26,399 bases of DNA from positions 1-26,399 of the IMG/VR virus record IMGVR_UViG_3300044712_000361. One strand, given 5' to 3'. The first letter of the stretch is position 1, and each line of letters opens with the position of its first letter. The notes under the pieces are model-generated. The model searched no databases. It saw only the letters and a list, made by a program, of their open reading frames with translations, and was not told the origin of the DNA. Positions 1-24,532 of the stretch are shown here, piece by piece. The position numbers and the translations under genes were made by a program. This DNA is from a virus.

Positions 1-18
1 TTATTTTGTCTAGTCCAG

Positions 19-65
19 ATGGCTACACGCACTCACCTAGTAGGGAAGGATATGGCTACACGCAC
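19..65. repeat. Two-copy 14-bp direct repeat
   Basis: The sequence ATGGCTACACGCAC occurs at 19-32 and again at 52-65. The offset of 33 bases is exactly 11 codons, and both copies lie in the same open frame (reading MATRT each time) that ends at the TAG at 70-72. This could be an internal duplication in the tail of a gene entering from the left. With only two copies there is no basis for calling it an iteron array or attachment site. Confidence 0.5.
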
Positions 66-93
66 AAGATAGCATCGGTGTATCTGGAGTATT

Positions 94-111
94 ATTTAGG
101 CTTGCCTAAAT
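94..111. repeat. Palindrome with CTTG loop
   Basis: ATTTAGGCTTGCCTAAAT is two perfect 8-base arms around TT, or as RNA a 7-bp stem capped by a CUUG tetraloop, a loop known to be stable. No T-run follows, so it is not a typical intrinsic terminator. It could be an operator or an RNA hairpin. Confidence 0.45.
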
Positions 112-371
112 CTTAGCCGTCCAACTTGTGCAAGCCCCGCCCGATCCATGTACTAGTCCACCCCTACCACCGCCCCGCCAACTAGTATATATCAGCCCCA
201 ACTCTCACACTCCCGCTTCCTGTTCCCTTATTAGTACGGGTAGGTATCCGTTACCACTACGGTAAGCTATGCTTTTGGTACCCCCGGAAATTCCTGCGCG
301 TATTACGGGTAGCTTTGATAGGAATTCCTGCCCTCTTTCCAGGGATTATGGCGGGTGGGGTTTAGGAAGGG

Positions 372-380
372 TGGTATACT
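372..380 (+). promoter_or_regulatory. Putative extended -10 promoter for the small-gene cluster
   Basis: TGGTATACT matches an extended -10 element (TGn followed by TATACT, one mismatch from TATAAT), and AGGGGG follows. No good -35 hexamer lies 16-18 bases upstream. It sits 25 bases before the first well-supported start codon. The TATAcT-AGGGG pattern recurs at other intergenic sites in this window (2146, 7592, 24527). Confidence 0.4.
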
Positions 381-404
381 AGGGGGAACAGGAAGGAGTA
401 CTTT

Positions 405-572
405 ATGGCCAACTTTAAGCGTAAACGACCGAAAAATAGACGTGCGGGCTGCTTGTTCTGTAAACCCTGGAAGGTAAATGGAACTAGCTCGAAGGATCGT
501 TTGCGGTGGTCGGAATTAAAAAATAAAACCAGGGATGGGGTAGGAGAGAAATATGGCAAAGACGTTCTTTAG
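405..572 (+). CDS. Small basic CxxC protein (55 aa)
   Basis: The ATG at 405 follows an excellent GGAAGGAG site (391-398). The product begins with a Lys/Arg-rich stretch (MANFKRKRPKNRR) followed by AGCLFCKPWK at about residues 14-23, so one CxxC pair followed by a KPWK motif. I recall small phage and bacterial hypothetical proteins with this basic N-terminus plus GCLLCKPxK pattern, but no function is known to me. The basic charge suggests nucleic acid binding, and the single CxxC could bind metal only as a dimer or with other ligands; both are inference. Its 3' end overlaps the next gene by 20 bases in another frame. It is the first gene after the promoter-like element at 372. Confidence 0.75.
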   Translation: MANFKRKRPKNRRAGCLFCKPWKVNGTSSKDRLRWSELKNKTRDGVGEKYGKDVL

Positions 573-753
573 TACTGCCCCTGACCCAAGGTTTGCTGTC
601 GATTTCGTCTGGGTAGAGGGGGTTTTCGTTACTATTCACGATGATGGGGAGATTGAGTTCTCGGGTGATCCTGATTTTGTGATTTCGAGGGAATCGTTAC
701 AGAGACTCTTATTTCGGGTTAATAACTTTATCGAGATGCGGAGAGGAAAATAA
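553..753 (+). CDS. Hypothetical protein (66 aa)
   Basis: The start ATG follows GGAGAG (543-548) at close spacing and lies inside the end of the previous gene, suggesting translational coupling. The product is acidic in its middle (HDDGEIEFSGDPDF, residues about 29-42) and looks like an alternating beta-strand segment followed by a short helix ending in a basic tail (EMRRGK). No motif or signal peptide is seen and I do not recognise the family. Strand, ribosome site and tight packing with its neighbours are the support that it is expressed. Confidence 0.65.
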   Translation: MAKTFFSTAPDPRFAVDFVWVEGVFVTIHDDGEIEFSGDPDFVISRESLQRLLFRVNNFIEMRRGK

Positions 754-755
754 CG

Positions 756-839
756 ATGGAATTAATTATGTTCGCCCTTTTGGTGTTTCTAACGTTGGAA
801 GACGGATGGAGGTATGTATATGATTGGCTTAAGTCATGA
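756..839 (+). CDS. Tiny hydrophobic peptide (27 aa), tentative
   Basis: The ATG at 756 lies 3 bases after the previous stop, with GAGAGGA (741-747) as a plausible ribosome site. The product starts with a hydrophobic run, MELIMFALLVFLTL, followed by EDGWRYVYDWLKS. The first 14 residues are too short for a comfortable transmembrane helix but could associate with membrane. It overlaps the next gene by 20 bases, like the 405/553 pair. It may be a real small membrane-associated phage peptide or only leader translation for the following gene. Confidence 0.4.
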   Translation: MELIMFALLVFLTLEDGWRYVYDWLKS

Positions 840-987
840 AGGCTTGGACAACTACAAGAAGGGGAGATTGAAATTGGATATTGAGCCGCCCGATTTTTGG
901 TGGTTTTGTCCGACCTGCAAGGAATTTCACCCAGGTTACAACGATAAACTGATTATGTGTGATAAGGAGGAGGAGCGAAATGGATAA
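820..987 (+). CDS. Small CxxC protein (55 aa)
   Basis: The ATG at 820 is placed 7 bases after a GGAGG (808-812), a near-ideal ribosome site. The product contains the segment DFWWFCPTCKEFHPG (about residues 25-39), with a CxxC pair, a nearby His and a later single Cys in IMCDKEEER. Together these could make half of a treble-clef or a small zinc ribbon; the metal-binding claim is inference. The C-terminus is highly charged. The stop at 985-987 overlaps the start of the next gene by 8 bases. I do not recognise a family. Confidence 0.65.
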   Translation: MIGLSHEGLDNYKKGRLKLDIEPPDFWWFCPTCKEFHPGYNDKLIMCDKEEERNG

Positions 988-1240
988 CAAAATGACGTAC
1001 AAGGATTTTATGGATAGCATTCAAAAACTGGAAAAAGAGAATGTGACTCCAAAGGATAAAAATTTCTATCTGATAATTGCTCCTTACATATGGAATGGCT
1101 TCTGGTATATCAAAGAACGCAGTAAACTGCTTCGTTGGGTAGGACGCAGGCTTCACAACAAATATATTTATGCCCTGGGACTTCATGTGGAGTGGATAGG
1201 TGGGTTGAAAGAGTTTATAAACTTGGAAGGAATAGACTGA
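980..1240 (+). CDS. Hypothetical protein (86 aa)
   Basis: The ATG at 980 is chosen over an upstream in-frame ATG at 959 because AAGGAGGAGG (964-973) lies at ideal distance from it. The product opens with a charged helical segment (residues 1-25), then a hydrophobic aromatic stretch reading NFYLIIAPYIWNGFWYI (about residues 28-44), then a basic part (KERSKLLRWVGRR) and a C-terminal amphipathic segment. The aromatic stretch could sit at a membrane interface, but no clean transmembrane helix is evident. The function is unknown. It ends one base before the methyltransferase start, consistent with one operon. Confidence 0.7.
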   Translation: MDNKMTYKDFMDSIQKLEKENVTPKDKNFYLIIAPYIWNGFWYIKERSKLLRWVGRRLHNKYIYALGLHVEWIGGLKEFINLEGID

Positions 1241-1241
1241 G

Positions 1242-2012
1242 ATGGGCTATAGAGAGCTTACTGCGTGTCCGATATGCGAGTACAGTGGAAAGTTTGCCCA
1301 GGTACGTGCTGCCTTTGGGCCTACATTCGTGACGGAGAGCGGTTTCAACGCTGCGTACTACTCTGCTTACTCGATCTGCCCGGTCTGTGGCGACATGTTT
1401 CAGAACCCAATGCCGAATATGACTGGGTTTTATGAGTCTGGAGACTATCGTGAGTCTGTCAATGCTTCTACAGAGGCGATGGATGCAGACGAACTGGCAA
1501 GGTCTGAGCGCGTTTTTAAGACGATCAAGGAATATTTGCCCGCTCCGACCAGTTTTTTGGACGTAGGGGCCTCCAGGGGCTATCTGTTGGACAAAATTAA
1601 GGAAGGTTACGGAATACTACCGATAGGAATTGAGCCAAACTTTTCCTATGTGACCAATTTACATGTAGTTGCCAGGGATATAAGCGATGTCGGTGGGCCA
1701 TTCGACCTGATAACCTGTATTCACGTCCTTGAACACGTCCCAACTCCCGTTTACACGCTCAGGCAGATGTATAACAGGCTGACCAGGGATGGAACGCTGA
1801 TGATAGAGGTTCCTACAATAGCTTCCCCAGCCTCTCCCTTCCGTTTGCCTCATTTACACGTCTTCGATACCGGCTCTTTGGAGACAGCGGCTCGAAAAGC
1901 GGGGATGAGGATCGACCGGCTCTTCTTCGGAACCGACCTGATGGTGACTTTGAAGGGATTGACACAAGATTCCAAGATTGGGTATACTCATATTCAAGGA
2001 GATATACCATGA
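1242..2012 (+). CDS. Zinc-ribbon class I SAM-dependent methyltransferase
   Basis: At 256 aa this is a class I methyltransferase of the Methyltransf_23 style. Two cysteine pairs, CPIC (C9/C12) and CPVC (C46/C49), form an N-terminal zinc ribbon. The SAM-binding glycine loop is FLDVGASRGYLL (residues 105-116), GIEP (129-132) is the acidic end of strand 2, and HVLEHV (161-166) is the typical post-motif II signature. PHLHVF (203-208) also fits this family. Such enzymes with N-terminal zinc ribbons often act on sugars, lipids or small metabolites; the substrate cannot be read here. A phage copy could modify nucleotides, DNA or a surface glycan. A GGAAGG site precedes the start, and the last bases overlap the next gene as ATGA, implying coupled translation. 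Confidence 0.85.
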   Translation: MGYRELTACPICEYSGKFAQVRAAFGPTFVTESGFNAAYYSAYSICPVCGDMFQNPMPNMTGFYESGDYRESVNASTEAMDADELARSERVFKTIKEYLPAPTSFLDVGASRGYLLDKIKEGYGILPIGIEPNFSYVTNLHVVARDISDVGGPFDLITCIHVLEHVPTPVYTLRQMYNRLTRDGTLMIEVPTIASPASPFRLPHLHVFDTGSLETAARKAGMRIDRLFFGTDLMVTLKGLTQDSKIGYTHIQGDIP

Positions 2013-2143
2013 ACCTACCGCTCGGAAAGATCGCATATTTGTGTTTCGCCTGGACGGTGTTCATCCTCTTGGGAATAGCCCTCGGACTGAACCTGCCGTT
2101 CATCCTGGCCGTAATTGGTACTGTACTGTACCTTATCGGTTAG
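2009..2143 (+). CDS. Small two-segment membrane protein (44 aa)
   Basis: The ATG overlaps the methyltransferase stop (ATGA) and follows a textbook AAGGAGATATACC ribosome site. The 44-residue product is nearly all hydrophobic: one segment spans about residues 8-25 (IAYLCFAWTVFILLGIAL) and a second about residues 28-44, split by GLNLPF. This looks like a helical hairpin in the inner membrane. Holins of this size exist and a muramidase gene lies 2.5 kb downstream, so a holin or antiholin role is possible, but nothing in the sequence proves it. It precedes the promoter and leader at 2146-2233. Confidence 0.7.
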   Translation: MNLPLGKIAYLCFAWTVFILLGIALGLNLPFILAVIGTVLYLIG

Positions 2144-2145
2144 GT

Positions 2146-2151
2146 TATAAT
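2146..2151 (+). promoter_or_regulatory. Perfect TATAAT -10 element
   Basis: TATAAT followed by AGGGG sits directly after the 44-aa gene. The nearest TTG-type -35 (TTGGTA, 2115-2120) is too far away at 25 bases; TGTACT at 2122-2127 has the right spacing of 18 but matches poorly. A start about 7 bases downstream (near 2158) would place the left arm of the long hairpin (2161-2172) at the very 5' end of the message. The same TATAAT-(T)AGG form appears at 7592 and 24527. Confidence 0.45.
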
Positions 2152-2160
2152 AGGGGTAAT

Positions 2161-2233
2161 CGGAAGGGCGGGGAGCCAGCTTACTTAAAGCGTCTGGTAA
2201 CACCCGCCCTTCCGTCTATTTGGGAGGGCTTTT
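2161..2233 (+). promoter_or_regulatory. Structured leader with two competing hairpins
   Basis: Two mutually exclusive RNA structures share one strand. Hairpin A is a perfect 12-bp pairing of CGGAAGGGCGGG (2161-2172) with CCCGCCCTTCCG (2203-2214), with a 30-base loop containing a small CCAG/CTGG inner stem. Hairpin B pairs GCCCTTCC (2206-2213) with GGGAGGGC (2222-2229), 8 bp including one G-U, with an 8-base loop, and is followed by TTTTG. Hairpin B resembles a short intrinsic terminator and also hides the only good ribosome site (GGGAGGG) of the next gene. Hairpin A, when formed, frees it. This is the architecture of an attenuator or translational switch; what would trigger it is not visible. 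Confidence 0.55.
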
Positions 2234-2639
2234 GTTAAAGACATTCTTAAGTATCCTGGCAGAACTTCGCTGGCCCCCTATTTATCTAGTCTCACCAAGA
2301 CAGTTCGAGAATACGCAGGGTATCAAGCGCCACGGAGAGCGAGTTAAAGGGAATTGGGGTATATCCGCTGATTTCTATCCGATGATTAGTACCGTCAGGG
2401 GTATGAGGGGAAAGATGCTAAAAAACACCCTCTGGCATGAGATTGGCCATAAAATCCATTCAAGCAAGCCCCATTGGTGGATATACCTGTTCGGAGACAT
2501 CATGGCCGATGGCGGTAACCAACAGACTGAAAGGTCTGTTTATTATGGACATACACGGGATGAACTGCCCTCTCGTGAACGTCTGCTCCATCTTTCCATA
2601 TTGGCAGCCAAACGCTATAACAAGAAAATAGAACAATAG
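2232..2639 (+). CDS. Small HExxH metallopeptidase-like protein
   Basis: I chose the TTG at 2232 because GGGAGGG lies just upstream; a TTG at 2220 is also in frame but has no ribosome site. The 135-residue product contains LWHEIGHKIHS with the zinc-binding HExxH pattern (H69, E70, H73). A glutamate about 27 residues after the second His (E100, in QQTERS) is a possible third ligand, which would make it a gluzincin-type fold, though this is unproved. There is no signal peptide. Small HExxH proteins in phages include anti-repressor-type peptidases and wall or capsid proteases, and the sequence does not discriminate. Expression is probably controlled by the leader hairpins at 2161-2233, which cover its ribosome site. 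It leads the adhesin and lysin block. Confidence 0.7.
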   Translation: MLKTFLSILAELRWPPIYLVSPRQFENTQGIKRHGERVKGNWGISADFYPMISTVRGMRGKMLKNTLWHEIGHKIHSSKPHWWIYLFGDIMADGGNQQTERSVYYGHTRDELPSRERLLHLSILAAKRYNKKIEQ

Positions 2640-2648
2640 GAGAAGAAC

Positions 2649-3077
2649 ATGGCAGCTACGTATAACAAGTATCAACAATTCATGGAGGATACCTTCAAGG
2701 GTGTCCACAACTTCACATCGGACGCAACCTGTACCGTCACCGTCGCCCTGTCTAATACAGCCGGAGATGCAGATGCAACTAAGGCAACCCTGAGCCAGAT
2801 TACGCAGGTTTCGTATACCAACTGCTCTTCACGGGTTGTGACCGGGATTACCGCTGAACACACGACCGGTACTGTCCACCTGACGGGAACGGATTTGGTT
2901 TTGACCGCCTCTGGTGGAGCCATTGGGCCATTCCGCTATGTCATTTTCTACAATGACGACCCTACATCTCCAGCAGACCCGCTGATGTGTTGGTTTGATT
3001 ATGGTTCAGCGGTAACCATTAATGATGGTGAGACATTTACAATCGATCTTCAAACTGACATTGCAACGGCAGTATAG
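2649..3077 (+). CDS. Phage structural protein, beta-rich (142 aa)
   Basis: The start follows AGGAGAAG. The opening MAATYNKYQQFMEDTFKGVHN and the following TVALSNTAG pattern match a family seen next to tail or head genes in many tailed phages, where proteins begin with a short helix and then 'NKYxxFxEDLxxGVHN...VALSNTAP'. The rest is Thr/Ser/Gly-rich alternating strands, including RYVIFYND (about 97-104) and WFDYGSAVTINDGETF (about 114-129), a typical small beta-sandwich. No catalytic motif is seen. It is probably a virion component; whether head, tail or fibre-associated is unclear. The next gene starts 4 bases later. Confidence 0.65.
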   Translation: MAATYNKYQQFMEDTFKGVHNFTSDATCTVTVALSNTAGDADATKATLSQITQVSYTNCSSRVVTGITAEHTTGTVHLTGTDLVLTASGGAIGPFRYVIFYNDDPTSPADPLMCWFDYGSAVTINDGETFTIDLQTDIATAV

Positions 3078-3080
3078 CGT

Positions 3081-4298
3081 ATGGCTACTACCTGGGTGCA
3101 GACTCACGCTCGGTTTCGTAATGACGACGGGAGTCAGACTACTGCAACATGGAAAGCCGCTCTCGATACCAACATTTCTGTGGATGTCGGTGCTGGGAAT
3201 GTAAATTTACGTATCCGTATATCCAGTTCGCAGACAGGTACAACGGGAGCCAAAGTAACTGGAACCCTGTACCTGTCTAAGAACGGGGGAGCGTATGCCG
3301 CGGTAACCGATGTGACATCCTCTGTTAAGGCAATCGCTTCCGCCAATTTTGCAGACGAAGATGCTACGACTCAGCAGATCAGTTCCGGAACATTTGTAGC
3401 GGGGAAGATGGATGAAGTAAACGGTGCTTGTACAGCAACGGGAACGATTGCTCAAAATTCTGTTACAGAACATGAATTCTCCGTACAATTGATTTCGGCT
3501 GACTTGGCCAGTGGAAACACGCTGGACTTTCGTATGAGAAATGGCTCGACTGCGTATACAACGTATACGGTGACTCCCAGGATAACCGTTCTCAAATCAT
3601 CCTCACTAACCATGAATGTCGGGTCGTATGCTGTAACGGGGGTCAATCAGGTCTTAAAGTCCGCCCACAAGATAACGTCAGATGTAGGCTCTTATTCACA
3701 AACGGGGATAAATATCAATCTGCTCGTTTCCAGAGGGCTGTTGGCTTCCGTAGGCTCATACCTGTCGACCGGTGTAAATACTCCAATCCTGGCTCAACAT
3801 AAGGTAACAGGAGCGGTAGGAAGCTATTCCCTGACCGGAGTCTCTACCCCCCTGGTTATGGCCAGGAAGATTGTGGCGGCTGTTGGTTCATACATTCAGA
3901 CTGGTATCGACGCAATTCTAGGTCTTCAAAAGAGATTAACGGTTTCTGTAGGTAGTTATTCGCTGACGGGAGTGGATACCCCGCTCCTGTCTGCTCACAA
4001 GATTATTTCGTCTATTGGAAGTTACGGGCTGACGGGGAACGAAGCAACGTTTACTATACAGACTCTCCTCCACGATTACGTCATGACCGTGAACGTTGGA
4101 GTTTACAATCTAACTGGGCATTTTATCGGCCTGTCAAAATATCCACCGGACATTTTCAAGTCTTCCTCTCAACCATTCGATTCCTTATCAGAAGGCAATT
4201 CAGTTATAATTACTAATGTAAAAGAAAAGCATTCTCCTAATATCAATAGCCGATCTTCTAGTATGGCTATTAATAGGAATCGAGGTAAGAGTGAATAA
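3081..4298 (+). CDS. Virion surface protein with GSYxxTG tandem repeats
   Basis: This 405-residue protein has three parts. Residues 1-175 are beta-rich and begin with THARFRNDDGSQTTATW, a motif found in small phage and metagenomic structural proteins ('RNDDGSETTATW'). Residues 180 to about 351 hold eight copies of a roughly 22-residue repeat with core VGSYxxTGxxxxLxxxxKI, the seventh longer. The last 50 residues are Ser/Asn/Lys-rich, probably disordered, and their DNA is more A+T-rich than the rest. A repetitive beta structure such as a fibre or adhesin shaft fits, but no receptor-binding domain is recognised. The gene lacks a strong ribosome site and follows its neighbour by 3 bases, so reinitiation is likely. 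Its end overlaps the next start by 8 bases. Confidence 0.7.
   Translation: MATTWVQTHARFRNDDGSQTTATWKAALDTNISVDVGAGNVNLRIRISSSQTGTTGAKVTGTLYLSKNGGAYAAVTDVTSSVKAIASANFADEDATTQQISSGTFVAGKMDEVNGACTATGTIAQNSVTEHEFSVQLISADLASGNTLDFRMRNGSTAYTTYTVTPRITVLKSSSLTMNVGSYAVTGVNQVLKSAHKITSDVGSYSQTGININLLVSRGLLASVGSYLSTGVNTPILAQHKVTGAVGSYSLTGVSTPLVMARKIVAAVGSYIQTGIDAILGLQKRLTVSVGSYSLTGVDTPLLSAHKIISSIGSYGLTGNEATFTIQTLLHDYVMTVNVGVYNLTGHFIGLSKYPPDIFKSSSQPFDSLSEGNSVIITNVKEKHSPNINSRSSSMAINRNRGKSE
3618..4130 (+). repeat. Eight-copy ~66-base protein-coding tandem repeat
   Basis: The segment encodes repeats starting at residues 180, 202, 224, 246, 268, 290, 312 and about 339 of the 405-aa protein. Six intervals are exactly 22 residues (66 bases) and one is 27. 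The invariant core is GSY-xx-TG; between cores lie a hydrophobic stretch and a basic KI/KV/RL. The DNA copies have diverged strongly while the protein core is held, indicating old repeats kept by protein-level selection rather than recent slippage. Confidence 0.85.
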
Positions 4299-4605
4299 AT
4301 ACTATTGTATGAGCGAAGTTGAGTTGGCTGTTTCATTCGTAAACAATGCAGCCTATTACGATCCGGATGGAGGGGTTACTTTATTGGTTAAAGAGCCGGG
4401 TAAGCACTTTGCTACATATACCTATCCGGCAGATATAACAAAGGACTCTACTGGACATTACAGCATGAGCCTGACAGTTAATTCAGTAGGTATATGGACT
4501 TATGTTTGGGTTTCAGACGATGCTTCAAAGGGCCACGTAGAGTCTGGGGACAAGATTCAAGTTCAGCCTGCCCTGAGCCATGTGTTAAAGGAGCTTCCTA
4601 AATGA
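4291..4605 (+). CDS. Ig-like/BppU-like beta domain protein (104 aa)
   Basis: The GTG at 4291 follows GAGGT closely and overlaps the previous gene by 8 bases; an ATG at 4309 is an alternative without a ribosome site. The central pattern, with VTLLVKEPG, YTYPADITKDSTGHYSMSL and GIWTYVWVSDD (about residues 29-78), is the common single-domain phage fold in which a strand pair 'DPxxVTLxVxxPxG', then 'ITKDxTGxYxxxxxxxxxGxWxYxW', is repeated across baseplate, fibre and minor tail proteins. It is probably a small beta-sandwich attached to the baseplate or fibre. Its last base pairs overlap the lysin start as ATGA. Confidence 0.65.
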   Translation: MNKYYCMSEVELAVSFVNNAAYYDPDGGVTLLVKEPGKHFATYTYPADITKDSTGHYSMSLTVNSVGIWTYVWVSDDASKGHVESGDKIQVQPALSHVLKELPK

Positions 4606-6074
4606 GAATACGTTATCCGATGATTATAGACTCCGCCTACAATAATTTGGGGGCGGACTGGACAAAGATGGGGGACAGCCTATGGGGAATGTATGTGAAG
4701 GCTACAGAAGGTCAGTTTACCCGCGATCCGCAGTTTCCTGCTTCCTGGGCGCAGTTACGGAATATGGGAAAGCCGCGTGCTGCCTACCACTTCTATCGTG
4801 AGAGCTGGTATGGTATGCCGCGTGACCCGATTGCACAGGCGAACTTCTTCTATAATCGAGTTAAAGAGTTTGGAATCATTCCTGGCGACAGATTCGTATT
4901 GGATGCAGAAGACAATAGTATGACCATCCAGAAAATCCTGGCATGTGCCAGAGAGATACGTCGTTTGAGTGGCTACTGGCCGATTTTGTACTCCGGGTTC
5001 TATTATTTGAAGGATAATACCAAGGGCTACGAGCTTCTGACGGATGCAGAGATAGACGACCTTAAGAAGCTTCCGATAATCATTTCGGCTTACCTAACAG
5101 ATGGAGATAACTATGAATTCCTTCCAGGTACTTTGGTTCCGGATCAAAGATATTTCGGTAGTGTCGTGGGCTGGCAGTATGCTGGAGACGTCAAGCCAGA
5201 GGTTCACAAGCTTCCCGGCCTTAATCCCTATTACAACAACGACTTGGACTTCAACGTATTCTTACCGGAGTTTTTAGAGGATTGGAAGACTGGCTACTAT
5301 ATGCCGGAGCCTGAACCCGAGCCTCTTCCGGAACCCCCTGCTCCAGATACCGGAACTTCCTTTACTCTTCGCCACTTTGATGTGGTTAACTACTACGGTA
5401 ACTCCACTCGTGTTCATGTAGCAAGTTTCAACTTGGCTGAATTCGATGTCATACTGGACAACCGCCTTAACTTCATGACGACAGACCGGTGGGCGGAGCA
5501 GATGAATGTGGATTATGCAGTCAATGGCCTCGCAGGTTGGTATCCAGGCCCCAAAAAGCGTGGAATTGTACAGACAATACTGGATGGTATGGCTTTCTTT
5601 CACGGAACAGGAGTTATGGGAACCGGCTACCAGAACCTGTATATCGATCAGAATAATAGGTTCTCTGTCTTCCGCCCTGTTCATATCTGGAATGCTCATG
5701 GCTTCCCCAATGTCCTGCTTAGGGATTTTGTTGTGCAGACCTTTAAGAAGACTCTGGACGACCTGCGAGCGCGTACGGCTGTAGGAGTTACAGAAGACCA
5801 GACTCGCCTGTATGTAGTAACAGTAGATGGCAAGGACTATGCTATGAAAGAGGGGCTTAACTTCCCGCAGACGGCGGAGATTATGAAGTCCCTGGGATGC
5901 AAAGACGCCTGGATGGCAGATGGCGGCGGAAGTACGACTGCTATATTGAAGACTGCCGATGGGAAGTATGAAGTCGTAGGAACCCCCTGGGGAGAGGAAA
6001 CTCGTATAGTAAATGGATCGGTCTACAAGATGAGGCCGGTTGCAGTTCACTTTGGTTTGAGGAGAAAATCATGA
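4602..6074 (+). CDS. GH25 muramidase fused to phosphodiester-glycosidase-like domain
   Basis: This 490-residue protein has two enzyme-like domains. Residues 1-228 are a GH25 lysozyme: D10 in MIID, the DxE catalytic pair D101/E103 in FVLDAEDN, VKATEG (32-37), AAYHFYR (60-66) and the closing WQYAG...NNDLDFNVF (191-220) are all family signatures. A Pro/Glu linker (about 235-249) follows. Residues 255-485 match the phosphodiester glycosidase (NAGPA/DUF2233) domain, with FNL, YAVNGLAGW, RTAVGVT (391-397), LYVVTVDG (403-410) and the hallmark DGGGSTT (440-446). GH25 cleaves peptidoglycan; NAGPA-like domains remove phosphodiester-linked sugars, so the second domain may trim wall-polymer or glycan phosphodiesters (inference). 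There is no signal peptide. AAAGGAG sits upstream, and the start overlaps the previous gene. Confidence 0.85.
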   Translation: MRIRYPMIIDSAYNNLGADWTKMGDSLWGMYVKATEGQFTRDPQFPASWAQLRNMGKPRAAYHFYRESWYGMPRDPIAQANFFYNRVKEFGIIPGDRFVLDAEDNSMTIQKILACAREIRRLSGYWPILYSGFYYLKDNTKGYELLTDAEIDDLKKLPIIISAYLTDGDNYEFLPGTLVPDQRYFGSVVGWQYAGDVKPEVHKLPGLNPYYNNDLDFNVFLPEFLEDWKTGYYMPEPEPEPLPEPPAPDTGTSFTLRHFDVVNYYGNSTRVHVASFNLAEFDVILDNRLNFMTTDRWAEQMNVDYAVNGLAGWYPGPKKRGIVQTILDGMAFFHGTGVMGTGYQNLYIDQNNRFSVFRPVHIWNAHGFPNVLLRDFVVQTFKKTLDDLRARTAVGVTEDQTRLYVVTVDGKDYAMKEGLNFPQTAEIMKSLGCKDAWMADGGGSTTAILKTADGKYEVVGTPWGEETRIVNGSVYKMRPVAVHFGLRRKS

Positions 6075-6922
6075 GGCTTTTACCTGCACCACAGATTTGG
6101 TCATTGAAGTCCTGGGACGAGGTTCCCGCGGGTGAAATAGATAATCCCCCTAGCAACACCTGGGCCATGATACGAACGTGGGATCAAGAGGTCAACGGTA
6201 CTGCTGGAACTAGTGTCAAGGTCAATCTGGAACTAAGGGAAATAAATTTCTGCAAAGCCGTCAACGACCAAAACCCTGGTTTTTGGAGATGGGCAGACCA
6301 TCCTGCCGGTACAGTCTATTTCGGCGAGGACTGGAAAACGGATATACGGGTTAAGTGGGCAGTCATTATGATGGCCTCTTCGTCCCGCTTGAATGTTAGA
6401 AACTTTGTAATAGTTGATGCGTTCTCCGATGATGGCTCTTTGGTGAGAGTACAGGCTATTCCCAGGTCTACGGACTATTCCAGGTATCTGCATGACCCCA
6501 ATTATGTACAGAGAGTATTCGACCAGGGTGGGTACAATGCCTGCGATGGTCTGCCTACCAGTATGCCTATGTTTGACCCTACTAGTGGGTTTGTGAGCAA
6601 CGCAAAGGGTATCTGGTTCCGTCCCATTTGGAAGTACGCTCTGATTGGCGAACTGCCCCTCTCTACGTCAATTCCTGGGGTTGGAGAAGTAATAATTTCT
6701 TATCGAGGTACGGATTGGATAGGCCGCGTGAAGAATCTGAATATACGTCCTACCCCGAGTATGTATAATACGGAGGTAGGTTACGTGTATCCTGCCACCC
6801 ACATTGACTTGGATGCGATTGTGGAGACGACAGAGGGCGTCTGGGGGAAGATTAGCAATAAGCTATGGATAGCCCTGTATTTGAAATCCAACAACACGTA
6901 CTACACAACATGGCGACCGTAA
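6071..6922 (+). CDS. Protein with C-terminal SH3b-type cell-wall-binding domain
   Basis: The ATG overlaps the lysin stop (ATGA) and follows GGAG. Residues 1-215 are an unrecognised, Trp-rich beta-like region (for example NPGFWRWADHPAG near 68-80, IWFRPIWKYALIGELP near 181-196). Residues 221-283 fit a bacterial SH3 (SH3b) domain: VKNLNIRPTPSMYNTEVGYV, then a hydrophobic strand, then GVWGKIS (256-262), WIALYL (266-271) and a terminal YYTTW. SH3b domains bind peptidoglycan cross-bridges or wall polymers. Coupling to the catalytic protein suggests a two-gene lysin or wall-targeting system. No catalytic motif is visible in the N-terminal part. Transcription may end or be interrupted downstream, where the HNH island begins. 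Confidence 0.65.
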   Translation: MRLLPAPQIWSLKSWDEVPAGEIDNPPSNTWAMIRTWDQEVNGTAGTSVKVNLELREINFCKAVNDQNPGFWRWADHPAGTVYFGEDWKTDIRVKWAVIMMASSSRLNVRNFVIVDAFSDDGSLVRVQAIPRSTDYSRYLHDPNYVQRVFDQGGYNACDGLPTSMPMFDPTSGFVSNAKGIWFRPIWKYALIGELPLSTSIPGVGEVIISYRGTDWIGRVKNLNIRPTPSMYNTEVGYVYPATHIDLDAIVETTEGVWGKISNKLWIALYLKSNNTYYTTWRP

Positions 6923-6951
6923 AAAGTGAACCCCCACCAAAAAAGAAGCCC

Positions 6952-6993
6952 TTGAAAGAAGCCCCTCCCCTATGATAGTATATAGGGGAGGAG
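6952..6993 (+). promoter_or_regulatory. Hairpin hiding a ribosome site, with a promoter inside it
   Basis: CCTCCCCTAT (6964-6973) and ATAGGGGAGG (6982-6991) are perfect 10-bp arms around an 8-base loop. The right arm is the Shine-Dalgarno region (GGGGAGGAG, 6985-6993) of the HNH gene that starts at 6999, so read-through transcripts from the lysin would have it masked. A promoter lies across the same hairpin: TTGAAA (6952-6957) is 18 bases from TAGTAT (6976-6981), with TATGAT or TATATA as alternative -10 boxes. A transcript starting near 6985-6988 would lack the left arm and expose the site. This arrangement is known for T4-family homing endonuclease genes such as I-TevI. Confidence 0.6.
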
Positions 6994-6998
6994 TTCTT

Positions 6999-7349
6999 AT
7001 GGGAAAAGCTATACATAGAATATCAAATGTGAATGAACAAACCAAGACCGCCGATTGTGCTTCCTGTGGAAGAGTTACAGTTATAAAGAAGAGAACTAGA
7101 CCCAATTATTATAGGTGGGCGTGTAAAGTCGCTATTGCTCAACAGAAGCATCCTAAACAACCAAATAAGGGATATAGTAAAGGGAAATGCCCCATTTGTG
7201 GTATCGAAACTGATAAATTAGTTTACGATCATAATCACAAAACTGGGGCATTTCGTGGGTGGATATGTAATCCCTGCAATATGGGACTAGGAAATTTCAG
7301 AGATGATCCCAAATCCTTAATGAGAGCCGCTACTTATTTGAGTCAGTAG
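6999..7349 (+). CDS. Endonuclease VII-like HNH nuclease
   Basis: The ATG at 6999 is selected because GGGGAGGAG ends 5 bases earlier; an in-frame ATG at 6972 would place the start inside the hairpin. The 116-residue product has an N-terminal CASCG-type Cys pair (about residues 18-21), then the recombination endonuclease VII/HNH core: CPICG (about 57-61), LVYDHNHKTGAFRG with the DHxH catalytic motif (about 67-80), WICNPCNMGLG (second zinc pair CNPC), and FRDDP near the end. Family members cut branched or specific double-strand DNA; free-standing copies next to terminase may be mobile homing enzymes or act in packaging. The coding DNA is visibly more A-rich than its neighbours, consistent with a separate origin. 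The 3' end overlaps the minus-strand gene by 20 bases. Confidence 0.85.
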   Translation: MGKAIHRISNVNEQTKTADCASCGRVTVIKKRTRPNYYRWACKVAIAQQKHPKQPNKGYSKGKCPICGIETDKLVYDHNHKTGAFRGWICNPCNMGLGNFRDDPKSLMRAATYLSQ

Positions 7350-7554
7350 GGGGTTCTTCTTTAGGTAGAGCTTGTAGCTCCATCGTCACTCTGAGCTTTA
7401 CACCCTTGGGTTCTAGGGGCGTATATGTGATGTTCAAGGCCTGAATCAGAACGCTTAGGTTCGGGTCTTGTTTCATCACAATGACCTTAAGACCATCTCG
7501 AATGGCCTTTTCCAGGGCCGGGCCGTCAAATGTGTATGTCTTTTTTCCTAACAT
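7330..7554 (-). CDS. Minus-strand hypothetical protein (74 aa)
   Basis: This is the only convincing gene on the minus strand. Read in its own direction, the ATG at 7554 follows a strong ACGGAGGTACT ribosome site. The product reads as strand-helix-strand: KKTYTFDG, ALEKAIRDGLKVIVM (about residues 13-27), then SVLIQALNITY and KGVKLRVTMELQAL, ending in an acidic Pro-rich tail. No DNA-binding motif or known family is recognised. It is divergent from the 7625 gene and convergent with the HNH gene, overlapping the latter's end by 20 bases. A regulator is possible from this position, but the sequence alone does not show it. Confidence 0.65.
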   Translation of the reverse strand: MLGKKTYTFDGPALEKAIRDGLKVIVMKQDPNLSVLIQALNITYTPLEPKGVKLRVTMELQALPKEEPPTDSNK

Positions 7555-7569
7555 AGTACCTCCGTTTCC

Positions 7570-7597
7570 TTATATTCTATCACGTTTCGTGTATAAT
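7570..7597. promoter_or_regulatory. Divergent promoter region with operator-like palindrome
   Basis: On the + strand TATAAT (7592-7597) followed by TAGGAG points to the packaging genes; TTATAT (7570-7575) is a weak -35 at spacing 16. On the minus strand TGATAGAAT (complement of about 7574-7582) is an extended -10 aimed at the 74-aa gene. Between and overlapping them is CACGTTTCGTG (7581-7591), a perfect 4-bp inverted repeat with a TTT centre. The two promoters and the palindrome overlap so closely that the two directions could compete or share one regulator. Confidence 0.5.
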
Positions 7598-7624
7598 TAG
7601 GAGAACATTAAAGGAAGGTGAGAA

Positions 7625-7846
7625 ATGGCTAAGAAGAAATGGGCAACTAAAGCTTTCGACAAGGCCAGCGAAGGCTCCTTGGGCAGTTTGAGTAATCCCG
7701 CAGCTATAGTAGCCAAAGCTCGCAAAAACCGAGGCGGAACAGTGAGGAAACTGTTACTTCTGGCGAACGGTAGTGGAGATGCCGCAACCAGGGCCAAGGC
7801 CAAGTCAATCATCAGCAGGATTAAAAGGGAATTAGGAGAGGCTTAG
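7625..7846 (+). CDS. Small basic helical protein, candidate small terminase
   Basis: The start follows AAAGGAAGGTGAGAA. The 73 residues are Lys/Arg/Ala-rich and predicted helical: MAKKKWATKAFDKASEG, then a Gly/Ser/Pro break, then KARKNRGGTVRKLLLLAN and a C-terminal helix TRAKAKSIISRIKRELGEA. Position directly before TerL, with a 1-base stop/start overlap (TAGTG), is where a small terminase is often found. However, at 73 aa it is shorter than usual TerS and no helix-turn-helix is obvious. It may be a TerS, a packaging-associated DNA-binding protein, or an unrelated nucleoid-like protein. Confidence 0.6.
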   Translation: MAKKKWATKAFDKASEGSLGSLSNPAAIVAKARKNRGGTVRKLLLLANGSGDAATRAKAKSIISRIKRELGEA

Positions 7847-9441
7847 TGAAAGAGTATCTTGAATGGATAAAGACCGCAGGATTTTGGGCAAGAGAAACGT
7901 GGGACATAGAAAAGGGGAGAATGAAGGGGGCTGGAATAATGGAGCTTTTCCCTCACCAGGAGAAAATCCTGGGTTCTGCGCTGAAATTCAACGAGGAAGG
8001 ACTGTTGGATTTTGAGACGGTGATTTACTCCTGTCCAAAGAAGTCCGGTAAGACGGCAATTGCTGCCTCTGTGGGCTGTTGGTATGCGGAAGAAGGTCGT
8101 CCTGGTACAGAGATTTATGTTATCGCTAATACCCAGGAGCAGGGAGCCGGTCTGGTCTTTCGTGACATTATCTACCACTTCAAGCACAAACAGGAGACTG
8201 ACCCGCTCGGAAAGAAGTACTGCAAAATCCACGAGTTCCGAATTGACTTTCCCAATGGAACGTTCATACAAGTTCTCGCGCAGTCGTTCAAAAGTGTAGC
8301 CGGTAGCCGACACGCTCTCACACTCTGGGACGAACTCTGGGGCTACACATCGGAGTTTGATAGACGTGTATGGGACGAAATGGTTCCGATTCCTACAGTT
8401 CAGAACTCCCTGCGCTTCATCACGACATACGCAGGATTTGAGAACGAGTCCGACCTACTCTGGGAGATGTTCATAAGAGGTATTGGAGAAGACGAAGGCT
8501 CCGAACATGAAAGCAAGGGTCAGGGTACAAAAATCCCAGACCTGGAAGACTTGCCGGTCTGGTCGAACGGACGTATGTTTACCTACTGGGATCATGAACC
8601 CAGGATGCCCTGGCAAACAGAGAAGTACCTGGACGAGCAGAGAGCATCTGAACGTCCGGCGGCGTTCATGCGTCTTCACATGAACCATTGGGTGACCAGT
8701 CACGAGGAGTTTATCCCTGTGTCTTGGTGGGAGAGGGCTACCAAGAGTTATGAAAATCCTGCAACTCTGTGGATTGACCATCCCTTCCGATATTGGCCAA
8801 TCACCATCGCTGTAGATGCAGGAATTCGTCGAGACTCTACTGCAATCGTCGGAGTTGGATATGATGCTCACAGGGGCAAAGTTGGAATTGTTTTTCACTG
8901 GGTATGGTCGCCACAGACGGACGACCCAATTGACCTGGAGGAGACAGTAGAGAAAGAGTTGCGCAAGATTGTGAGACAGTTTAATGTTGCTTCAATCGTA
9001 TATGACCCTACTCATTTAATTACGATCATGAACCGACTGAAGAGGGAAGGTTTGCCTACCAGAATGTATGAGCAGACACTCCCTAACATGACAGCCGCCT
9101 CGCAGCTCTTGTACGACCTGTTCAAGAACAACAACCTGGAAGCTTATCCTGACGACACTCTGAAGCGTCAGATACAAATGGCGGTCGCAGAGACTACCAG
9201 TCGTGGCTTCCGGATTGTAAAGACCAAGATGTCCAAGCGCCATCACATTGATGCAGCTATCGCCCTGGCGATGGCCTGTTATGAAGCAGTTCAGAATGGC
9301 GGCGTAGACATCTCAATTCCAGTCATGATCCGCTCCCCGTACTACGATATGACCGCATTGGAGCCGGAAGAGGACATGAGTGTACCTTTTGAGCTACGAG
9401 GAGAAGTAAATGACAATTCGCCTATCTCATATAACGAATAA
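7846..9441 (+). CDS. terL: Terminase large subunit (TerL)
   Basis: TerL is the DNA packaging motor, an N-terminal ATPase plus a C-terminal RNase H-like nuclease. Start GTG at 7846 is preceded by AGGAGAGG. In this 531-residue protein the Walker A is CPKKSGKTA (residues 63-71), the Walker B with catalytic acid is LTLWDE (158-163), and RFITTYAG (190-197) fits the coupling motif. The nuclease domain shows three acidic centres: D324 in IAVDAG, D387 in IVYDPTH, and D469 in HHIDAAIALAMA. This is the full length expected of the family with all key residues present. It probably cuts the concatemer and pumps DNA through the portal encoded next, 11 bases downstream. Confidence 0.95.
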   Translation: MKEYLEWIKTAGFWARETWDIEKGRMKGAGIMELFPHQEKILGSALKFNEEGLLDFETVIYSCPKKSGKTAIAASVGCWYAEEGRPGTEIYVIANTQEQGAGLVFRDIIYHFKHKQETDPLGKKYCKIHEFRIDFPNGTFIQVLAQSFKSVAGSRHALTLWDELWGYTSEFDRRVWDEMVPIPTVQNSLRFITTYAGFENESDLLWEMFIRGIGEDEGSEHESKGQGTKIPDLEDLPVWSNGRMFTYWDHEPRMPWQTEKYLDEQRASERPAAFMRLHMNHWVTSHEEFIPVSWWERATKSYENPATLWIDHPFRYWPITIAVDAGIRRDSTAIVGVGYDAHRGKVGIVFHWVWSPQTDDPIDLEETVEKELRKIVRQFNVASIVYDPTHLITIMNRLKREGLPTRMYEQTLPNMTAASQLLYDLFKNNNLEAYPDDTLKRQIQMAVAETTSRGFRIVKTKMSKRHHIDAAIALAMACYEAVQNGGVDISIPVMIRSPYYDMTALEPEEDMSVPFELRGEVNDNSPISYNE

Positions 9442-9452
9442 GGAGCCTAAAC

Positions 9453-11327
9453 ATGTTAACTGAGGCCGATCTTGTTAAGGTTTCCGGTACTAGCGATTTC
9501 AAGGACTTGATGAGTCGTATCAAACGGGCCGAAGAGTATACAGAGAAGTGGCATCAGAACATTCGACGCTGGCGTAAACTGTATAACCTCGACCATTATC
9601 AGCGTACTGGCAAGACGAGCGAAGTCCTGTACAGCGACCCGACTTACACCAACACGGTCGATCTCTCTGTCGGCATCATGCTAGGTAACGACCTGCGCTG
9701 GCACGCTTATGGAATGGCTCCATCTGCCGGTGAGCAGAAGGCTACTGGAAAGCTGGAGAAGTTGATTGCCGGTACTTTGGAGATTAACGGAGAGCGTGAG
9801 GAAGAGCATCTTCCCTACAAGCTTTTCCTAAATTTCAACAGAGATGCCGCTGGGGTTATTTATTCTGTTTACGACCCTGCTCTGACCGAGGACAAGGAAG
9901 TAATGGAAGTACCCAATGGGACGGATGGTGTTGTAAAGAAGTGGAAGTTTGCAGAAGTCCCGATTAGAACCAAAATCATTGATCCCCTGCAAACTATTTT
10001 CCTTCCTGGAGGCCCGAAGAAATGGTTACTTATCGGACGTAAGGAAAGCCGTTCTATCCTGGATGTAGAGACTACGTACGGCGTCAAGTTTGAGAAGTAC
10101 GCTACCTGGAGCCAGGAAATGAAGTCCTCAACGATGGGTATTTTCTACGACATATGGGATTATGCCTGGATTACTGAGGGCCAGCAGAATTCAACAGAGG
10201 TCACCGATACCCTTCCTGACGTTGCACAGCGAAAACTCATAGTTCGCAATACTCGTATCTTCGATGGACGTCCTGTGGTCGGGCCTAAGGTTATGACCGG
10301 CTATGTTGATTTACCCTACACTGTACAGTTCTTCAAGCCTGTCGGTGACGAGTCGGGCGACTGGCACAACATCATGACCCCTCTGGAGACTTCAGTCAAC
10401 ATGCTGGAGCGTTCCTTTAACCGCAGAGCCAAGCAGATTGACATCTACACGGCCATGCCATTGATTGTAAAGACCCAGCCCGGTCGAAAGGTCGTTGTAG
10501 ACCCCGGTCTGTACAATTCAGTCACGATTACTCCGGATGAGTCAATTGAATTCCCTCGCTGGCCTGGAAATGCGCCGGACGTACAGGAACACATGGACAT
10601 GCTGAGGTCAAGAATTCAGCAGTCCGGCTTCTCTGACGTCATGTTTGGTTCCGGATCGAGCCAAATTGCAGGGTATGCCCTGTCACAGCTTGGTGACCAG
10701 AACCGGATACGTCTACAGCAGCCAATTCAACACCTGGAGTTACTGTTGACCTCCTGGGCTAAGAAAACGATGAGAATGCTTCAAACGTTCGCCCCCGGAA
10801 CCATTATGTGCGTGTATGGCCACCAGAAGGGCGAAGATTACATGGATTACGTCGATATGGATGAGTTGAAGGGCTTCTCGATACGTGCAGAGATACGCCC
10901 CAACTTCCCGAATGAGGAAATGCGACGGGTTGCTATGTCCACGCAGGTCAAGGGAACCATCTCTGACTACACCCGCCGAGAGAAGTACCTGGGTATTGAG
11001 CAGCCGGAAGACGAAGAGAAGAGAATGCTGATTGAAGCCGCTCAGCGCCACCCAGTCGCCCAAATGTACGCCCTGATGTCAGTACTCAATGAGGCCGCCC
11101 AGGCCGGAGACGAAGTAGCCGCCATGACACTACAGACTATTCAGCAACAGGGTATTCCTGGGCAGGCAGGACGTCCTGGGGAACCTAATAAGCCGGAGCA
11201 GTTGACCGGTACAGCTTCTCCGACCGGCCAGGAGCCTGCACTAGCTGCCGGGCCTAACGGTTCATCCGCTATGGCACAGCAGGAGAGTATGTCGAATGCA
11301 GCACCCAACCTCAGTGGAGGGATGTGA
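9453..11327 (+). CDS. Portal protein
   Basis: AAGGAG overlapping the terL end serves the ATG at 9453. The 624-residue protein fits a phage portal: helical N-terminus (EEYTEKWHQNIRRWRKLYNL, about 27-46), an N-terminal beta/helix region (TYTNTVDLSVGIMLGNDLRW, about 64-83), a central wing and stem (residues about 280-430), with LYNSVTITPDESIEFPRW and the loop and helix reading QSGFSDVMFGSGSSQIAGYALSQ, then RIRLQQPIQHLELLL, typical of portals (about 386-440). The last 80 residues are Gly/Pro/Gln-rich and likely flexible. Portals form dodecameric rings at one capsid vertex and bind TerL. The stop overlaps the following ATG (TGATG). Confidence 0.9.
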   Translation: MLTEADLVKVSGTSDFKDLMSRIKRAEEYTEKWHQNIRRWRKLYNLDHYQRTGKTSEVLYSDPTYTNTVDLSVGIMLGNDLRWHAYGMAPSAGEQKATGKLEKLIAGTLEINGEREEEHLPYKLFLNFNRDAAGVIYSVYDPALTEDKEVMEVPNGTDGVVKKWKFAEVPIRTKIIDPLQTIFLPGGPKKWLLIGRKESRSILDVETTYGVKFEKYATWSQEMKSSTMGIFYDIWDYAWITEGQQNSTEVTDTLPDVAQRKLIVRNTRIFDGRPVVGPKVMTGYVDLPYTVQFFKPVGDESGDWHNIMTPLETSVNMLERSFNRRAKQIDIYTAMPLIVKTQPGRKVVVDPGLYNSVTITPDESIEFPRWPGNAPDVQEHMDMLRSRIQQSGFSDVMFGSGSSQIAGYALSQLGDQNRIRLQQPIQHLELLLTSWAKKTMRMLQTFAPGTIMCVYGHQKGEDYMDYVDMDELKGFSIRAEIRPNFPNEEMRRVAMSTQVKGTISDYTRREKYLGIEQPEDEEKRMLIEAAQRHPVAQMYALMSVLNEAAQAGDEVAAMTLQTIQQQGIPGQAGRPGEPNKPEQLTGTASPTGQEPALAAGPNGSSAMAQQESMSNAAPNLSGGM

Positions 11328-11533
11328 TGGATATGACTTTGCTTAAAAATGCCGCCCGAGAAGGACTTAAAAGAGTAGCAAGTAGCTCCGGCCATACGAT
11401 GGATCAAGACCTTCTCCTGTATAAACAACTCAAGCCCTCTGACTTTCCCAAGATTATAGAGAAGTATGGGGTCGAGGGAACGCTGGATTACATCAAAGCG
11501 ATGGAAGCCAAACTGAAAGAAAAAGGAAAGTAG
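11327..11533 (+). CDS. Small hypothetical protein between portal and head genes
   Basis: The ATG at 11327 overlaps the portal stop and follows GGAGGG (11315-11320). An upstream in-frame GTG at 11324 is possible but less well placed. The 68-residue product is helical: LLKNAAREGLKRVA (residues 5-18), then a linker, then LLYKQLKPSDFPKIIEKYG and a C-terminal amphipathic helix TLDYIKAMEAKLKEKGK. No domain is recognised. Small helical proteins in this position can be head-associated or chaperone-like, but there is no motif to decide. Confidence 0.65.
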   Translation: MDMTLLKNAAREGLKRVASSSGHTMDQDLLLYKQLKPSDFPKIIEKYGVEGTLDYIKAMEAKLKEKGK

Positions 11534-11539
11534 GATACC

Positions 11540-12094
11540 ATGCCCGGTGCATTGAATGAACGCGATGATTATGTAGCCCCTACCCCAACCCCGGTTTCTA
11601 CAACGGCCATACTACCCAAGGCAAATGCGGACGTTAAGAAAACTCTGAAGTCCCTAATGCCATTCCTGTCGCCGGAAGATCAGCAATCACAGGCTACTTT
11701 GTATGGTCTTACGGCAGGAAAAGGCAAAGTACCGTCCGAGATTACCGGAACTATCCGGAATTCATATCTTAGCCAGAAACGAGCCTCTCAGGCGCTATTG
11801 GCTTTGAATCGGTCTGGAGCAACAGCAGGCCCAGGCTTAACCTTTCTGAAGAACGCTGTCAACCTGCTAAAGACATTCGGAGGAGGTGGTGGTTCAGAGG
11901 GTATGAGCCGAGAAGCCTATGCTCTGATGGCTACCCAGCTTGGTGCTTTGGTAGAAGGAGCCAAGCAGGATGCTAGTACCAAGCCGTATGCTGCCCTGGC
12001 CCAAATGTTCCTGAATCCCAAGTTCACGGCAGGGCAATTAAATGAGACGACCAAGTCGGGTGCTCCTGTTCCGACGTCGAAACTATACGTATAA
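11540..12094 (+). CDS. Hypothetical head-region protein (184 aa)
   Basis: The ATG at 11540 is 6 bases after the previous stop; the ribosome site is weak (GTAGGA), so reinitiation may contribute. The product has an extended N-terminus with TPTPVS, then helices (about 31-60), RNSYLSQKRASQALLALNRS (about 73-92), a glycine run (114-118) that looks like a hinge, and a second helical part (about 121-160) ending in a disordered Thr/Ser/Pro tail. No family is recognised. Its position between portal and the giant protein suggests a virion or assembly role; that is inference from context alone. Confidence 0.6.
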   Translation: MPGALNERDDYVAPTPTPVSTTAILPKANADVKKTLKSLMPFLSPEDQQSQATLYGLTAGKGKVPSEITGTIRNSYLSQKRASQALLALNRSGATAGPGLTFLKNAVNLLKTFGGGGGSEGMSREAYALMATQLGALVEGAKQDASTKPYAALAQMFLNPKFTAGQLNETTKSGAPVPTSKLYV

Positions 12095-12105
12095 CGGAGG
12101 TAATA

Positions 12106-12324
12106 ATGATCTACAAGATGATAATTGTTTCTATGGTTGGGCAGAATCCCAGTGGGATTATGTCGTCAGCCGAAGCGATGATGAACACGGCCTCAGTCGA
12201 TGGTTATCGGTTTGTTCATGGCTTTGAGTCAGATAATCGTGTATACATTGTGATGGGCAAGAGTCTTGAGAAGAGGGGTCGCCCGCGCAAGGATAATGAG
12301 GAAGTCGTTGAATTGGAGGGCTAA
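12106..12324 (+). CDS. DUF4177-like small protein (72 aa)
   Basis: The ATG at 12106 follows CGGAGGTAATA, a very good ribosome site. Residues 1-50 resemble the short DUF4177-type fold: two strands (MIYKMIIVSMVG and FVHGFESDNRVYIVM) bracket a helix (SAEAMMNTASVDGYR), with the typical DGYRFVH and RVYIVM. The C-terminal part is basic and contains GRPRKDNEE, resembling an AT-hook core (GRP with Arg and Lys), so weak DNA binding is conceivable. The function is unknown in this family. It ends 2 bases before the giant gene. Confidence 0.6.
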   Translation: MIYKMIIVSMVGQNPSGIMSSAEAMMNTASVDGYRFVHGFESDNRVYIVMGKSLEKRGRPRKDNEEVVELEG

Positions 12325-12326
12325 CC

Positions 12327-24485: not shown

Positions 24486-24516
24486 AAACAGGAGAGCGAA
24501 AGTGGCTCTCCTGTTT
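24486..24516 (+). terminator. Strong intrinsic terminator
   Basis: AAACAGGAGAGC (24486-24497) and GCTCTCCTGTTT (24505-24516) make a perfect 12-bp stem around the 7-base loop GAAAGTG. A C/T-rich tract (CTCTTTCT, 24517-24524) follows, including TTT. It lies just after the decoration-type gene (stop at 24466) and just before the promoter at 24524, so it closes the scaffold-capsid unit. The 12-bp length is unusually strong for this window. Confidence 0.8.
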
Positions 24517-24523
24517 CTCTTTC

Positions 24524-24532
24524 TGCTATAAT
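24524..24532 (+). promoter_or_regulatory. Extended -10 promoter after the terminator
   Basis: TGCTATAAT is a perfect extended -10 (TGn plus TATAAT), followed by TAGAGA. No -35 is visible since the upstream positions are the terminator stem. A start near 24540 would give a leader of about 37 bases that carries GAGGAGG. The promoter directly restarts transcription after the terminator. Confidence 0.6.

Follow-up and report, generated by a model that had tools for sequence, protein, structure and literature searches.

The window analyzed here (26,399 nt, the whole of a 26.4-kb virus record) carries late phage genes, with a GH25 endolysin, a terminase and a portal-like protein all encoded on the + strand. 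Between an ORF for a 44-aa membrane-type protein (2009–2143) and a 135-aa ORF with an HExxH motif and a TTG start (2232–2639, + strand) lies an 88-nt gap (2144–2231), hereafter the leader. Its first hairpin, H1, consists of a 12-bp inverted repeat without mismatch (2161–2172/2203–2214) that encloses a 30-nt loop, and its second, H2 (2206–2213/2222–2229), has eight pairs, one of them G–U, with a ninth G–U possible. The two are mutually exclusive, as the + strand segment that forms the 3′ arm of H1 (2203–2214) is common to both, with 2206–2213 doubling as the H2 strand that pairs with the Shine–Dalgarno (SD) sequence. The SD, GGGAGGG (2222–2228), lies 3 nt upstream of TTG 2232 in the 3′ arm of H2 (2222–2229, + strand), an assignment based on the sequence and the computed folds. 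The 5′ arm of H1, CGGAAGGGCGGG (2161–2172, + strand), contains a seven-of-eight copy of the SD strand (GGAAGGGC at 2162–2169 versus GGGAGGGC at 2222–2229), and either can therefore pair with the one shared strand; we term this arm anti-sequestering. The loop (2173–2202, + strand) holds an inner CCAG/CUGG plus GC stem and, in the alternative state, pairs with the gene start. An earlier note on this DNA had described two competing hairpins, an SD within the second and a CCAG/CTGG stem within the 30-base loop. Our analysis confirmed the coordinates and exclusivity of the two stems and the position of the SD, and the inner stem is present in the predicted fold.

That an HExxH gene follows the leader, as also proposed, is borne out by five homologues, by conservation of the HExxH motif and by a predicted zincin fold. 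The homologues (L012/L025, L026, L027, L028 and L029) show 25–40% identity where measured, their alignment begins at codon TTG 2232, and they have in common an HExxH...HWW(I/V) signature, of which HExxH and H-W-W are invariant in alignment A3. The phrog_87 metallo-protease family was matched by three of four members (best E 3.4e-4). Judged from these homologues, the gene is real, and they support its start at TTG 2232. A model derived from a four-sequence alignment reached a pLDDT of 85.5, and single-sequence AlphaFold prediction gave 39. The model aligned with abylysin, selecase and IrrE over 75–88 residues (VIA-align Z 5–6, rmsd 2.9–3.9); Foldseek alone returned no significant match for it. 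It shares with the minigluzincins (abylysin, jannalysin) and IrrE/PprI a small HExxH zinc-peptidase fold, whereas there is no significant sequence match to these proteins, and at Z below 8 the resemblance defines the fold class only. The gene product is thus predicted to be a putative zinc peptidase of the minigluzincin/IrrE-like type.

These relatives were reached only through a terminase alignment and afterwards with profiles; single-protein searches of viral and genome contigs with the HExxH gene gave no relatives, and the terminase profile did not find the host among genome contigs. No leader precedes any of the five homologous genes, each of which abuts or overlaps its upstream gene: L012 and L026 each start on a codon that overlaps the upstream stop, L027 leaves a gap of ~6 nt, and in L028 and L029 the homologue starts within the upstream gene. 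In L028, a GH25-type lysozyme gene (judged by eye) lies directly 3′ of the HExxH homologue. Relatives of the next gene (L003–L008) have neither the HExxH gene nor the leader at that position; among them, L003, related by terminase, portal and next gene, is without the HExxH gene there. The terminase large-subunit gene is split at the same residue (~167–170) in two relatives, L003 (6423–7171) and L023 (2966–3456), with inserts of ~750 and ~490 nt, respectively, that had no Rfam intron match, and the portal gene of L014 is likewise split.

Blastn with the leader and gene against phages and plasmids gave no match, the exact H1 arm pattern was not found among viral contigs, and the window holds no further leader copies. 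As far as the collections searched show, the leader appears restricted to this lineage. Rfam 15 had no match across the window at gathering scores; the best sub-threshold hits in 2100–2300 (E 0.31–0.5) were to unrelated miRNA and Spot 42 models, and the search for tRNA and tmRNA found none. Neither a homologous leader nor a conserved aptamer with covariation was present in viral contigs, phages, plasmids or before the five homologous genes; covariation is absent because no gene homologue has a leader, which leaves the leader a single sequence. The earlier suggestion of a riboswitch whose 30-base loop could act as the sensor found no support in these searches, given the lack of an Rfam match and of any sensor.

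We then considered the signals that could define the transcript. A candidate −10 element, TATAAT, matches exactly at 2146–2151 (+ strand) and would place the RNA start near 2158, with both arms of H1 included. The hexamer occurs 11 times in the window (10.9 expected), and three of its six + strand sites fall in gaps, which make up 4.6% of the window. An extended form, TATAMTWRGRR, was found four times (375, 2146, 7592 and 24527), always on the + strand, in intergenic sequence and 30–86 nt before a gene; the motif was derived from these four sites themselves, and it showed no enrichment in relatives. The best −35 match at 16–18 nt spacing has three of six bases, and the site is absent from the promoter scan list. 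The previously proposed promoter is plausible, with an RNA that would hold both arms, but is short of a good −35. The motif context gives moderate backing to a promoter at 2146, possibly of a phage type without a clear −35. A ribosome-stalling leader peptide was also considered and dropped, as 2144–2219 contains no ATG, GTG or TTG. Elsewhere in the window, a perfect 12-bp terminator-like hairpin is followed directly by TGCTATAAT (extended −10) at 24486–24532, before the gene at 24577, an arrangement with the appearance of a terminator–promoter junction.

To assess the balance between the two hairpins, we computed folds for RNAs with different ends. For RNAs ending at 2240, H1 is favored by about 4–5 kcal/mol and has a probability of ~1; no other local fold up to that point comes near it in stability, and it accounts for −33 of −34 kcal/mol. 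For the RNA named in the earlier note (2158–2240), folding put H1 ahead by ~5 kcal/mol, so that this pair by itself would not switch. The 3′ side of H2, however, runs on into the coding sequence, and H2 is the tip of a ~135-nt nested hairpin that the earlier note had missed. The helices that extend it are 2149–2156/2275–2282, 2171–2180/2269–2278, 2175–2188/2247–2260, GUCU/AGAC and UAACA/UGUUA. The 5′ strand of the basal helix, AATAGGGG (2149–2156, + strand), is complementary at all eight positions to CCCCTATT (2275–2282), and the coding segment that pairs with the leader spans 2247–2282 (+ strand; 2247–2260, 2269–2278 and 2275–2282). Because 50 nt of coding sequence add helices to the H2 side, the two folds come into balance: over 2144–2285 their computed ensemble energies are equal (−59.1 and −58.9 kcal/mol), with probabilities of 0.57 for H1 and 0.43 for H2. 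This gap is far smaller than the parameter error, and the balance moves with the chosen RNA ends; it holds from 25 to 55 °C. When the RNA starts at 2173, the probability of H2 is ~1.

The same folds were evaluated for access to the ribosome site. With H1, the site costs 8.7–9.0 kcal/mol to open, which is ordinary for the phage (seventh of 26 gene starts). Deleting 2144–2172 raised the cost from 8.7 to 20.9 kcal/mol, and RNAs starting at 2173, 2190 or 2203 required 16–21 kcal/mol, compared with 9 with the arm. An ordinary cost with H1 and an exceptional one without it mean that the 5′ arm offsets the SD-burying fold. In the computed folds, the SD is therefore paired in one state and freed in the other, to an extent beyond chance.

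The comparison with chance rests on several sets of shuffled sequences. The window contains three perfect stems of at least 12 bp with loops of at most 60 nt, versus 0.06 expected per dinucleotide-shuffled window. The span 2144–2285, picked after its fold was seen, has a fold z-score of −3.8, with none of 200 shuffles as stable, and ranks among the lowest of the scanned windows. The lowest scanned value (−4.7) belongs to a 20-nt, 85% inverted repeat at 3223–3287, inside a 405-aa gene (3081–4298). We also generated 1,000 shuffled leaders that preserved dinucleotides and held the SD and gene start fixed. None reached the minimum free energy of the native leader (−35.2 versus −21.0 ± 3.1), the cost of opening its ribosome site once the 5′ arm is gone (20.9 versus 9.1 ± 2.0 kcal/mol) or its arm-dependent rise in opening cost (12 kcal/mol). 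The leader is a single genome's sequence without conservation and was picked out of many windows read, as a functionless chance structure might be; that explanation is nevertheless quite improbable in our view, set against 0 of 1,000 shuffles on three measures and a position in the lowest-energy tail of the window. The folding of the leader is non-random. Synonymous recoding of codons 2–18 (n = 300) weakened the long H2 fold by 8 kcal/mol on average relative to the native sequence; only three of the 300 recodings were as stable in this fold and six as balanced. For a span picked post hoc, this result is suggestive of a native codon choice that favors the long hairpin.

Together, these data lead us to read the leader, tentatively, as a cis-acting translational on/off element with two exclusive folds, and we infer that the phage uses it to set peptidase expression. 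A simpler account is that H1 is a static intergenic RNA element that also shields the anti-SD strand, with no regulated switch, for instance as an RNase III-type processing site or an mRNA-stabilizing 5′ hairpin. In T7, such processing or stabilizing hairpins stand between genes. H1 dominates the folds up to 2240 and arises first, and the intact leader has ordinary accessibility, both in keeping with a static hairpin. The complementarity between the shared strand and the SD, unmatched by any shuffled leader, and the codon-level bias toward the long hairpin would then remain unexplained, and we regard the static account, including its processing and stabilizing forms, as somewhat unlikely.

H2 could instead act on transcription, with H1 as antiterminator and H2 plus TTTTG as an intrinsic terminator, a reading to which the earlier note had pointed in naming attenuators and the TTTTG. 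The tail 3′ of H2 reads TTTTGTT, and hairpin and tail together fit a simple terminator pattern. Exclusive stems are present; the tail is short, and terminator-like sites are no commoner in 1–12400 than in shuffles (11 versus 9.4 ± 3.1). Moreover, the stem covers the SD at a distance of 3 nt from the start codon, as SD sequestration predicts, and H1 would prevail in the RNA synthesized by that stage. We consider attenuation decidedly improbable.

The SD of a second gene in the window, one for an endonuclease VII-like protein (PF02945, E 7.5e-19; window positions 6952–7349, start ATG 6999), is enclosed in an 11-bp hairpin, with an opening cost of 20.7 kcal/mol, the highest of the 26 starts. A promoter-like site with an extended −10 (TTGAAA-18-TAGTAT) lies across this hairpin, and in RNA from 6988 the SD would be open at a cost of 5.8. 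RNA structure at the start site is therefore not unique to the HExxH gene in this window, and the layout is that of the classical T4 gene 49 (also e and I-TevI). Downstream, a 275-nt gap with no gene assigned (7350–7624) precedes the terminase region and is strongly structured at 7400–7480. Late-gene control of the T4 type, in which read-through RNA hides the SD and RNA from an internal promoter frees it, is documented in T4, for the genes e, soc, 49 and I-TevI (PMC3014915; PMC2988022), and the endonuclease VII-like gene makes it conceivable for the HExxH gene. Here, however, the logic is inverted: loss of the 5′ arm closes the site rather than leaving the SD open, TATAAT 2146 lies upstream of both arms, and the site would be open only in RNAs that start after ~2210. 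Such control is very improbable for this leader.

For the translational on/off element, we propose the following mechanism. In the ON fold, H1 would lock away the anti-SD strand (2203–2214), leaving the SD and start codon about as accessible as those of the phage's other genes. In the OFF fold, the same strand would pair with the SD, and the start codon would be buried too, in a structure reaching to codon 17. H1 is complete once the polymerase is at 2214, ahead of SD synthesis, and the refolding barrier, estimated with a path heuristic that gives an upper bound, is ~23 kcal/mol. With H1 formed ahead of its rival and so high a barrier between them, the two folds should not interconvert readily; the choice would fall during transcription, and the untreated transcript is probably ON by default. 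The OFF fold might be entered by two routes, either because the 5′ arm is missing, after the RNA has been cleaved or has begun within the leader, or because a protein, small RNA, ligand or ribosome holds the arm during RNA synthesis. A ribosome on the upstream stop codon (2141–2143) would, given its footprint size, cover roughly to 2156, and so would reach the basal helix and not H1. A more specific version, which we think unlikely when all its parts are taken jointly, is an orphan switch that is ON by default, turns OFF upon capture of the SD-mimicking 5′ arm by a ligand, protein or small RNA at the transcriptional stage, times the zinc peptidase of the lysis region and has its OFF fold partly written in synonymous codons. 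If the two-state reading is true, the gene would have gained a small unit of 140 nt in one phage lineage, with its relatives relying on overlap with the upstream gene.

Leaders of related design allow the element to be placed. Riboswitch and attenuator leaders (Rfam classes) likewise have alternative folds with one common strand; unlike them, the leader studied here has no Rfam family match, lacks a conserved sensor and has a weak terminator. The Helicobacter pylori aapA3 mRNA forms metastable SD-sequestering hairpins (PMC6733600), and two of its traits resemble what we compute here: its folds exclude each other, with an anti-SD lying within the ORF in one of them, and co-transcriptional folding order matters. 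In aapA3 (PMC6733600), however, the early hairpins close the site, whereas the hairpin that forms early in the phage leader holds it open, and no antisense RNA is known for the phage leader. The seg43 leader of Aeromonas phage 25 has a very stable hairpin just upstream of the ribosome-binding site, which stays outside it; the passage on it describes no competing SD-burying hairpin (PMC2988022). The closest parallels are the hairpins that sequester ribosome-binding sites in T4 e, soc, 49 and I-TevI and in Aeh1 mobE (PMC3014915, PMC2988022). There too, a phage SD can be buried in a leader hairpin, with the outcome set by the 5′ sequence of the transcript; in those genes the site is shut by the 5′ arm and open in late RNAs without it, whereas here the arm opens the site and armless RNAs are closed. 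We tentatively place the leader in a kind already known, that of translational leaders with competing folds, from whose phage examples it differs in sign, with an upstream arm that frees the site. Should it function in the way computed, its logic is the reverse of that of the T4 lysozyme and I-TevI hairpins, with the upstream arm protecting translation.
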